A stretch of DNA of 64,000 nt. It comes from Blautia hansenii. GTDB taxonomy: Bacteria > Bacillota > Clostridia > Lachnospirales > Lachnospiraceae. Numbering within the stretch: position 1 is the stretch's first letter; the number at the start of each line of letters is the position of its first letter. Under the pieces are notes generated by a model. The model saw nothing but the letters and a program-made list of their open reading frames with translations. It had not been told where the DNA came from and searched no databases. The position numbers and the translations under genes were made by a program. Location: NCBI RefSeq assembly GCF_013304445.1, contig NZ_JAAITA010000005.1, positions 1 through 64,000 on the forward strand. Direction: 5' to 3'. Positions 42,522 to 45,725 of the stretch are shown piece after piece.

Positions 42522-42550
42522 TTGACTTTTTAAGTCCAATATTATAGAAT
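42522..42550 (+). promoter_or_regulatory. Promoter of the pyruvate formate-lyase operon
   Basis: TTGACT (42522-42527), 17-bp spacer, TAGAAT (42545-42550), about 55 nt before the first start codon. Confidence 0.65.
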
Positions 42551-42606
42551 CCACATATAACAGAAAAGTTATTTACAACTAACTACAAGATATAGGAGGT
42601 TATACT

Positions 42607-44682
42607 ATGCTCAAAGAATGGGAGTCTTTCCAGGGAGGCATCTGGGAAAAGGAAATCAATGTTCGGGATTTTATCCAGAAGAACTATGTGCCTTATGACG
42701 GAGATGATACTTTCCTGCAGGGACCGACGCAGGCAACACAGGATTTATGGCAGCAGGTTATGGACTTAACAAAGCAGGAGCGGGAAAAAGGCGGTGTCCT
42801 GGATATGGATACCAAAGTAATCTCCACCATTACTTCTCATGGTCCCGGTTATCTTGACAAAGCAAAAGAAACCATTGTGGGCTTCCAGACCGACAAACCT
42901 TTTAAACGTTCTCTGCAGCCATACGGCGGTATCCGCATGGCTATGAAAGCCTGCGAGGACAATGGATATAAAGTAGACCCGGAAGTGGTAGAATTTTTCA
43001 CCAAACACCGCAAAACACACAACGACGGTGTTTTCGACGCCTACACACCGGAAATGCGCGCCTGCCGTTCCAGCCACATCATCACAGGTCTTCCCGATGC
43101 ATACGGAAGAGGCCGCATTATTGGTGATTACAGACGTGTGGCCCTTTACGGCGTAGACCGTCTGATTGAAGACAAACAGAATCAGAAGGACAGCACCAGA
43201 ACCATTATGTACTCTGATGTAACCAGAGAAAGAGAAGAACTTTCCGAACAGATTAAGGCTTTAAAGGAATTAAAAGAGCTTGGCCATATTTACGGCTACG
43301 ATATTTCCCGTCCGGCACAGAATGTCCAGGAAGCAATCCAGTGGCTGTATTTCGGCTATCTGGCTGCCATCAAAGAGCAGAACGGCGCTGCCATGTCCCT
43401 TGGACGTACTTCTACTTTCCTGGATATTTATGCAGAAAGAGACTTGAAAAACGGCACTTTCACAGAAGAACAGATTCAGGAGTTTATTGATCACTTTATC
43501 ATGAAGCTGCGCCTTGTAAAATTTGCCAGAACACCGGAATACAATGCCCTTTTCTCAGGTGACCCCACCTGGGTTACCGAGTCCATTGCCGGTATGGGAA
43601 TTGACGGACGCCACATGGTAACCAAAATGTCCTACCGTTATCTCCATACACTGGAAAATCTGGGCACAGCGCCGGAACCAAACCTGACCGTACTCTGGTC
43701 CACCAGACTGCCGCAGAACTTCAAACGTTTCTGTGCAAAAACTTCCATTGCATCTTCTTCCATCCAGTATGAAAATGATGACTTGATGCGTGTTACACAC
43801 GGAGATGACTATGCAATTGCCTGCTGCGTGTCTTCCATGAAAGTGGGAAAAGAAATGCAGTTCTTCGGTGCAAGAGCAAACCTGGCCAAGTGCCTGCTCT
43901 ACGCCATCAACGGCGGTGTAGACGAAATTTCCAAAAAACAGGTAGGACCGAAATACCGCCCCATCACTTCCGAATATTTGGACTACGAGGAAGTCATGGA
44001 ACGTTTCCAGGATATGATGAAATGGCTGGCCTGCGTATATGTGAACACTTTAAATATCATCCACTATATGCATGATAAATACAGCTATGAAAGACTGCAG
44101 ATGGCTCTCCACGACAAAAAAGTAACCCGTTGGTTTGCCACAGGAATTGCCGGACTTTCCGTTGTTGCCGATTCTCTTTCCGCAATCAAGTATGCCAAGG
44201 TAAAACCAATTCGTGACGAAAACGGTATTGCCATTGATTACGAAATTGAAGGAGATTTCCCAAAATACGGAAACGACGATGACCGTGTAGACGATATTGC
44301 ATACGATATCGTGCACCAGTTTATGCAGTATATCAAAGGAAATCACACTTACCGAAACGGAATTCCAACAACTTCTATCCTGACCATTACCTCCAATGTG
44401 GTATATGGAAAGGCAACCGGTTCTACTCCGGATGGAAGAAAAGCGGGACAGGCCTTTGCTCCGGGTGCAAACCCTATGCACCACAGAGACCGTCACGGCG
44501 CTGTGGCCTCTTTAAATTCTGTTTCCAAGCTTCCTTTTAAGGACGCACAGGACGGTATTTCCAATACCTTCTCCATTATCCCCGGTGCGCTGGGAAAAGA
44601 TGATGCTATCCTGTTTGATGACATTACTTTCGAGCTGGAACCGGATTGCGCCTGCTGCGAACCTAATGCACAGCTTGATTAA
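42607..44682 (+). CDS. pflB: Pyruvate formate-lyase catalytic core lacking the glycyl-radical domain
   Basis: A 691-residue formate C-acetyltransferase core, which splits pyruvate + CoA into acetyl-CoA + formate. The active-site cysteine pair C406-C407 ([10 protein letters not shown]) and flanking substrate-binding segments are intact. Classical enzymes have about 740-770 residues and end with a glycyl-radical domain (RVSGYAV); this one stops after [16 protein letters not shown] without it. The missing domain is encoded 49 nt downstream in another frame with its own GGAGG and ATG (44732-44974), so this is a genuine split, not one stop mutation. AGGAGG precedes this start as well. The CACC tail is an unusual cysteine cluster. 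Confidence 0.95.
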
Positions 44683-44731
44683 TCTCTGAAGACAAAAACT
44701 TTTCATAAAAAATTTAACGGAGGTAGAAATT

Positions 44732-44974
44732 ATGAATATCAGTGACGCTCAGATTGACAACCTTGTAGGTTTATTAGACGGTTATGCCGAAAAAGGCGGC
44801 CACCACTTAAATGTAAATGTATTTACAAAAGAAACTCTTTTAGATGCACAGGAACACCCGGAAAAATATCCTCAGCTGACTGTTCGTGTATCCGGATATG
44901 CGGTAAACTTCAATAAGCTGACAAAAGAACAGCAGGACGAGGTTATTTCCAGAACTTTCCATGATGGAATGTAA
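44732..44974 (+). CDS. Autonomous glycyl-radical subunit of pyruvate formate-lyase
   Basis: An 80-residue protein equal to the C-terminal glycyl-radical domain of [27 protein letters not shown], then [16 protein letters not shown] with the radical glycine at G55, then [18 protein letters not shown]. There are 25 residues after the glycine, as in full-length PFL. It resembles E. coli GrcA (YfiD), a spare part for oxygen-damaged PFL, but here the partner core has no such domain, so this subunit should be obligatory. GGAGG precedes the ATG, and the gene overlaps the activase gene by 14 nt. Confidence 0.93.
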
Positions 44975-45725
44975 AGAAACCGGTTATATCCATTCTCTGG
45001 AAACCTTTGGCACGATAGACGGTCCCGGAATACGCCTTGTGGTGTTTTTCCAGGGCTGCCCTATGCGGTGCCTGTACTGCCACAATCCGGATACCTGGGC
45101 ACCGAAAAAGGGCCAGACAATGACCGTAGATGAGATTCTGGATATCTATGAAAAAAATAAAGGCTTCTATTCCAAGGGTGGTATCACAGCTACAGGGGGG
45201 GAACCTCTTATGCAGCTGGATTTTCTCATTGCCCTCTTTGAAGGTGCAAAAAAACGGAAGATTCATACCTGTCTGGATACATCGGGAATTCTCTATCGGA
45301 AAGAAAAAGACGAAGCGTACAGACGGCTTTTTGCCTCTACAGACCTTCTTCTCCTGGATTTAAAACACAGTCAGGCAGATACCCATAAAACCCTTACCGG
45401 GCAAGCCCTGCAGTCTGTTCTGGAGTTTCTCGACGCTGCTGACAAATCTGGGGTTTCTGCAATTATCCGTCATGTAGTGGTCAAAGGCTACACCGATACC
45501 CCAAAAGAATGGGACGGCATCGGAAAAATCATTGCAGAGCATAAAAATGTCAAAGGTCTGGAAGTGCTCCCTTATCACAATATGGGAGAAATCAAGTATA
45601 AAGAACTGGGACTTTCCTATCCTCTTCAGGGAATGGAAAATCTTTCAAAAGAACTGGCACAGAAAGCCCGGCAGACCATTTTACAAAGTATCCGAAAATA
45701 CCGCAGCCAGAATCATCTCTCCTAA
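44961..45725 (+). CDS. pflA: Pyruvate formate-lyase activating enzyme
   Basis: A 254-residue radical SAM activase that abstracts hydrogen from the glycine of the glycyl-radical domain. The [4Fe-4S] motif is CPMRCLYC in [18 protein letters not shown], with SAM-binding [11 protein letters not shown] and a preceding [13 protein letters not shown]. Typical length. Two ATGs are adjacent (44961 and 44964) within the end of the glycyl-radical gene, with no separate strong ribosome binding site, so translation is probably coupled to it. Its natural substrate would be the 80-residue subunit docked on the core. Confidence 0.96.

Follow-up and report, generated by a model that had tools for sequence, protein, structure and literature searches.

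A naturally split pyruvate formate-lyase in Blautia hansenii and its relatives, with a cysteine motif in the core tail or in a third small protein

Introduction

Pyruvate formate-lyase (PFL) converts pyruvate and CoA to acetyl-CoA and formate. In Escherichia coli, oxygen cuts PFL at residue G734, and the small protein YfiD can replace the part that is lost (PMC8683613, available portions). A strand of YfiD is thought to substitute for strand 10 of the enzyme barrel, the radical being installed in the complex, according to the same portions of that study (PMC8683613). Another glycyl radical enzyme, benzylsuccinate synthase (BSS), also has small partners: its accessory subunits bind [4Fe-4S] clusters, one of these subunits promoting the formation of a thiyl radical, as stated in the accessible part of PMC12590467.

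That a PFL can come without its radical domain is not new. NCBIfam names a protein family GrcA3, and the PDB entries 38la and 38lb are cores without a radical domain; neither is among the 50 entries listed from a structure library ending 8 April 2026. The literature that we searched, in which few subscription journals are covered, yielded no paper on GrcA3 or on 38la and 38lb; with the same coverage, no paper on a split PFL was found by exact phrase, title or opening of the abstract among the matches listed. Here, we analyze a PFL locus of Blautia hansenii within a window of 64,000 nucleotides, the whole stretch of DNA considered, and compare it with loci from the host's family and phylum.

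Results

Core and glycyl-radical domain in separate genes

The core gene (Table 1) exceeds the TIGR01255 cut-off of 994.2 with 1124.1 bits, its match ending at position 668 of 744. A preliminary description of this DNA had proposed that the 691-residue core keeps the pair C406-C407 and has no RVSGYAV domain, and reading of the open reading frame (ORF) together with HMMER alignment bears out both points: the adjacent active-site cysteines of PFL are present, C406 and C407 being aligned to C418 and C419 of the E. coli enzyme (1h16), and the glycyl-radical domain is not in the core chain and is held by the next gene. The same description had assigned this domain to the 80-residue protein encoded 49 nt downstream. 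Similarity of the core to E. coli PFL indeed stops at residue 681, that of the small protein starts at 681, and its G55 aligns to G734; as had also been proposed, G55 lies 25 residues before the end, exactly as G734 does in the 759-residue E. coli enzyme. The two frames differ because their starts lie 2125 nt apart, and this offset, the GGAGG preceding grcA3 and the presence of the split in relatives all sustain the earlier view of a separate frame with its own GGAGG and ATG rather than a stop-codon lesion. Judged from these alignments, the core alone is an incomplete PFL, and the pair of core and GrcA3 would be a complete one.

Table 1. Features of the split PFL locus, in window coordinates
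Feature	Position	Strand	Basis
Promoter-like TTGACT-17-TAGAAT, 10/12, 5' of core	42522..42550	+	consensus match only
Shine-Dalgarno-like AGGAGG of core gene	42594..42599	+	direct reading
pfl core, 691 aa, PFL without glycyl-radical domain	42607..44682	+	ORF; TIGR01255 1124 bits, positions 2-668 of 744; PF02901 749 bits
Active-site pair C406-C407 (E. coli C418-C419)	43822..43827	+	HMMER alignment to 1h16
C-terminal extension, residues 665-691, absent from one-piece PFLs	44599..44679	+	comparison with relatives
Cysteine motif C681-A-C683-C684 of tail	44647..44658	+	direct reading; comparable cysteines in relatives
Shine-Dalgarno-like GGAGG of grcA3	44719..44723	+	direct reading
grcA3, 80 aa, separate glycyl-radical domain	44732..44974	+	NF038360 169.2 bits; aligns E. 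coli PFL 681-758
Codon of radical glycine G55 in RVSGYAV (E. coli G734)	44894..44896	+	HMMER alignment to 1h16
pflA, 254 aa, radical SAM activating enzyme	44961..45725	+	TIGR02493 PFLA 270 bits, cut-off 231.75

The 80-residue protein passes the cut-off of 158 for NF038360 (GrcA3) and misses that of 170 for TIGR04365 (GrcA/YfiD), where it reaches 95.6 bits over model positions 66-125 of 126; the long N-terminal extension of GrcA/YfiD is not present. The break at E. coli residue ~681 lies ~12-14 residues before the YfiD/tPFL boundary (residues 693-695). In a phage collection, GrcA3 matches occur in 1539 of 50,697 records, mainly of enterobacterial phages, of which just 37 cover 80%; the closest come from human faecal phage records, with 77.5% identity across all 80 residues.

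The first ATG of pflA falls inside the end of grcA3. This 14-nt overlap, earlier taken as a hint of stoichiometric coupling, is seen in the window but is no constant feature: pflA is found between core and GrcA3 in three relatives (L046, L053 and L066), which have the order core-pflA-grcA3 instead of core-grcA3-pflA and lack a local copy of the third ORF described below. Promoter-like sites numbered 7 against 5.9 expected in shuffles. Three are on the coding strand, and the sole one of these outside genes lies 5' of the core; none was found on the + strand between the core, grcA3 and the start of pflA. Rfam returned zero families in the window.

The only PFL found in the genome

The window's genome (3.28 Mb in 75 contigs, rated 100% complete) contains a single profile match to PF02901, namely this core. 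PF01228 gave the two halves and a 21-bit, sub-cut-off match in a 720-residue frame on another contig. The preliminary description had called for a check for any full-length PFL; with PF02901 and TIGR01255 none was found in this genome, the latter model matching the same two pieces only. A second GrcA3 copy is likewise absent. NCBIfam places GrcA3 among autonomous glycyl radical cofactors and lone GrcA3 genes exist, which would suit a mere spare part, comparable to YfiD in E. coli, serving a one-piece PFL from some other locus of the genome. The chance of this is very slim, given the one PF02901 match, the lack of a one-piece TIGR01255 match, a partner core devoid of a radical domain of its own, and the occurrence of a one-piece PFL in only 3 of the 58 split genomes of the family survey below. 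With a single core and no one-piece PFL detected in the genome, the radical has to come from the small protein.

Distribution of the split

Relatives were fetched with peptides of the query core, and the best 80 of 203 were kept, a choice that informs on conservation and not on prevalence. A core frame without the radical motif is present in 80/80, so the search for split PFLs in relatives that had been suggested earlier found the arrangement kept in every fetched locus of this set. A separate small ORF accompanies it in 79 of the 80, the remaining locus, L050, ending ~150 nt after the core. Spacers between core and GrcA3 range from a 4-nt overlap to ~870 nt, in many cases with an extra gene between. 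A chance ORF or an assembly error is excluded by the split in all 80 fetched loci. Open frames of ~790-910 aa in ten genomes were also considered as fused genes and rejected, core and GrcA3 being separate ORFs in each fetched locus.

End-to-end alignment with E. coli PFL, the core reaching residue 681 and the small protein continuing from 681, is what a broken or misassembled one-piece PFL with the 80-aa ORF as its leftover C-terminus would also produce. We regard this explanation as having practically no chance, as the radical domain is missing from the core in each of the 80 fetched relatives, the spacers vary and often hold a gene, and the third ORF between the two parts is under purifying selection. 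The natural two-gene PFL that the preliminary description had put forward is thereby upheld by the single core, the failure to find a one-piece PFL in the genome and the persistence of the split in relatives.

Prevalence was read from a survey of 150 genomes of the host's family, 118 of them PFL-bearing: 56 have one-piece PFLs only, 58 are split (3 with a one-piece PFL as well) and 4 are partial. For two genomes, G480 and G499, the split call comes from an interrupted core match that shares its contig with the third gene and grcA3, and copy counts depend on draft genomes. A phylum-wide draw of 398 genomes contained 118 with a PFL above cut-off, and two of these were split: the window's own and G281, which belongs to the host's family.

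A cysteine motif in the core tail or in a third protein

In one-piece PFLs, the sequence ALGK runs nearly straight into NLVxLLDGY, whereas split cores have a tail after ALGK. The tail motif of the window's core is DCACCEPN, and other split cores carry, for example, ECGNQACNIPN, DCPDEACRIPNL or CGNGACSSPTLFEGLEDN. Cysteine-free cores finish in a short acidic tail (e.g., VFAGDIELDLNK), and most of them are followed by a third ORF. Chain 38lb of the PDB, a core that lacks the radical domain, ends in DFTIENKPDCACAA and resembles the cysteine tail; therefore, a solved structure may already show such a tail. Short tandem duplications of the last core codons (ELDLSK-stop repeated) are seen in the spacer before the third ORF in L048 and L070. 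A tRNA piece in the spacer of L007 was not confirmed.

The third ORF, of 65-80 residues, lies between split core and grcA3 in L034 (6068-6274), L035 (6050-6286) and many further loci, with the consensus IDDIVAMLDxxMxxGxGHxNV...GCxDCxxGxLACxVPTLxxGxDD. Over its first 32 residues it can be aligned to GrcA3 (32 columns; hhalign E 1.7e-9, probability 96.3). The radical loop and the radical glycine are absent, and the second half bears the cysteine motif of the tail; two cysteines are invariant in 16 aligned members and one more is present in part of them. No Pfam or NCBIfam model was passed by the five members scanned: in four of the five, NF038360 touches the N-terminus (E 2e-4 to 0.07), and Pfam gave only non-credible matches (E 0.05-0.16) in two. 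The single match of a PDB profile search with the third protein, at E 0.36, is not credible either. AlphaFold2 models of read-through frames were poor, with mean pLDDT 55.6 for core plus GrcA3 of L007, 55.4 for core plus third protein of L034, and pTM 0.50; in Foldseek and VIA-align, the best rows for the L007 model were E. coli PFL.

With its 32 GrcA3-like residues and missing radical loop, the third protein could be imagined as a functionless, degenerate remnant of a duplicated radical domain. We give this very little credence. All 247 of 247 pairs with dS 0.1-2.5 have dN below dS (median ratio 0.30), dN/dS falls to 0.02-0.2 in the nearest pairs, and a Shine-Dalgarno-like tetramer precedes a candidate start in 12 of 16 loci read (it is absent in L035, L037, L051 and L075). 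The two invariant cysteines, the survival of an unlinked gene in G021 and G590, and the mutual exclusion of third protein and tail detailed below speak against a remnant as well. By these measures the third protein behaves as a real gene. It follows the split in its distribution: it occurs in 0/56 one-piece-only genomes of the family survey at E 1e-6, and in the phylum-wide draw in 1/398 genomes, namely G281, the sole other genome with a split core above cut-off.

Comparison of these loci points to a second rule that looks new and that the preliminary description had missed: a split core bears the cysteine tail, or its genome encodes the third protein with the same motif. Among 97 split records, which include repeats of loci fetched twice, 48 have at least two tail cysteines, 45 have a local third ORF (counted at at least 39 bits; L058 has one by this HMM count), none has both and four have neither. 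Two of these four, L066 and L138, carry a third ORF elsewhere in the genome, at 75 and 72 bits, respectively. The other two are split loci in which no cysteine element was found: the genome of L053 has no third-protein match beyond GrcA3, and that of L046, whose core tail has a single cysteine, gave only a 26-bit match without the motif. Six loci outside the 97 (L030, L052, L069, L071, L077 and L079) all have the third ORF, and the last 12 residues of their cores are cysteine-free.

In the set used for trees, 65 of 68 split rows divide into 37 with the tail and 28 with the third protein, with none having both or neither; L046 and L053 had been set aside beforehand, L052 is missing, and L066, L138 and L180 were scored as third-protein rows through genes elsewhere. 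In the family survey, the third protein scores at least 47 bits in 35 of 58 split genomes, and at least two tail cysteines occur in 22 of the remaining 23, L176 having an unusual CC form; in the last one, G568, a different contig encodes a divergent third protein of 34 bits. The tree requires eight switches between tail and third protein. The independent pairs located on starred branches number only three, which does not allow a sign test to be significant at 0.05.

A probable single split with two probable re-fusions

Split cores form one clade in a FastTree phylogeny of 109 core rows, from which five one-piece rows were left out (support 100, three changes needed), and again in an IQ-TREE phylogeny of 47 chosen rows (support 99), where the starred branches force three changes. 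Nested within the split clade are two one-piece groups, one comprising five genomes and the other the single locus L195. On these trees, one origin of the split followed by two re-fusions is the simplest reading, which gene transfer could blur. The one-piece PFL of L195, nested among split ones, has the cysteine motif inserted in the linker exactly at the split point, and it is probably a re-fused enzyme. The cysteine motif is absent from the re-fused group of five genomes.

Lone GrcA3 genes

Eight genomes of the family survey contain a second GrcA3 in a short open frame on another contig. In G535 this copy adjoins pflA at a contig edge and may belong to another PFL operon. For the remaining seven, the 1-2 kb fetched to either side contain no PFL core. 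Three of these copies (L183, L187 and L189) are preceded, on their own strand, by a gene that Pfam identifies as a Crp/Fnr-type regulator, with a thioredoxin gene placed between regulator and lone grcA3 in L187; different genes flank the other four. Each of the seven genomes belongs to the third-protein type, and the extra gene is confined to just 7 of 58 split genomes. Lone GrcA3 genes, three of them beside Crp-type regulators, would be expected of a replaceable subunit, and they lend this idea indirect support.

Discussion

We read core, GrcA3 and PflA as a two-subunit PFL with its activase, in which GrcA3 is exchangeable and a cysteine element acts when GrcA3 is away, and assign this reading a probability of about 0.8. 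The core carries the barrel and the C406-C407 pair and lacks the last strand and the radical loop. GrcA3 would dock at the site of the C-terminal domain in a one-piece PFL, complete the barrel and present G55, on which PflA would install the radical within the complex. Oxygen would then cut GrcA3 at G55, and the surviving core would take up a fresh copy.

How GrcA3 might bind can be compared with E. coli. In the portions available, PMC8683613 reports that a core cut at residue 695 showed no YfiD binding by calorimetry; core 1-695 with YfiD was less activated, yet the activated fraction was as active as the wild type. Because of this lack of binding (PMC8683613, same portions), the split enzyme must bind differently. 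The NLVGLLDGY segment, which GrcA3 carries, may be how it attaches to a core without a radical domain.

It is exactly this would-be docking segment that the third protein has in common with GrcA3, so the two should compete for one site, taking turns in the three-gene version. As a competitor, the third protein would be at work while GrcA3 is off the core, a part that the cysteine tail would play in cis. From its co-occurrence with split cores, we suppose that the cysteine element protects a core that has no GrcA3 bound by covering the exposed active site and its cysteines. We favour such shielding, or quenching at that site, over its rivals, partner docking and a metal site; nevertheless, both tail and third protein might just as well serve in docking or in metal binding.

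Regulation or assembly, through the expression ratio or activation by PflA, might be what the split serves in place of repair, with the cysteine element serving PflA or some other partner as a docking or metal site. Core and grcA3 do lie in one cluster with pflA, and the [4Fe-4S]-binding accessory subunits of BSS, one of which promotes thiyl radical formation (PMC12590467, accessible part), would fit such a role. However, extra GrcA3 genes near Crp-type regulators, once with thioredoxin, better fit the supply of a damaged part, and the two nearly invariant cysteines of the motif do not suffice for a [4Fe-4S] cluster within a single chain. We consider this alternative credible but would sooner bet against it. 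By analogy, BSS may be a precedent for small cysteine-bearing subunits that control a radical (parts of PMC12590467 and of PMC10239695).

Beyond the exchangeable two-subunit PFL, we tentatively consider a wider scheme, for which the odds are below even. Exchangeable radical domains would alternate at one site of a durable core, namely an oxygen-cleavable GrcA3 and a radical-free stand-in with the same docking half and a thiol pair; the stand-in would have shrunk to a cysteine tail on the core in the window's and similar lineages, one re-fused lineage would have lost the element, and some genomes would store a regulated GrcA3 near Crp/Fnr-type regulators. None of the literature listings searched showed the cysteine rule, the third protein, the re-fusions or lone GrcA3 genes near Crp-type regulators, and the available portions of PMC8683613, PMC13252398, PMC9403272, PMC11528403, PMC10239695 and PMC12288474 do not mention them either.

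PFL is central to fermentation in the gut and is easily damaged by oxygen; in the family survey, roughly half of the genomes with a PFL (58/118) make it in two parts. As a natural, unengineered split PFL whose radical subunit can be changed at the bench, it makes repair after oxygen damage directly measurable. The cysteine element and the third protein point to a second, unstudied component to be included in reconstitution or in microbiome annotation.

Among described systems, the locus most resembles PflB (TIGR01255; E. coli 1h16), with which it shares the core sequence over 668 of 744 model positions, the cysteine pair, the sequence of the radical loop and an adjoining PflA. E. coli PflB is, however, one polypeptide, whereas here the last ~80 residues are encoded separately, and 27 residues with a cysteine motif have been added to the core as a tail. 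The small protein is like GrcA/YfiD (TIGR04365) and GrcA3 (NF038360) in being a stand-alone radical domain. YfiD has a disordered N-terminus of 60 residues and rescues a one-piece PFL cut by oxygen (PMC8683613, in part); GrcA3 lacks those 60 residues, starts with the extra NLVGLLDGY segment and partners a core without a radical domain. The structures 38la and 38lb, labelled 'Formate acetyltransferase', are, like the window's core, PFL cores without a match to the 80-aa radical-domain query; both differ from it in sequence, and 38la stops at LGKED. The beta and gamma subunits of BSS are likewise small partners of a glycyl radical enzyme that can control its radical chemistry or radical domain (parts of PMC12590467 and PMC10239695). 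They are [4Fe-4S] proteins with a HiPIP-like fold, whereas the third protein is related to the radical domain itself through its first half, and only two of its cysteines are nearly invariant.
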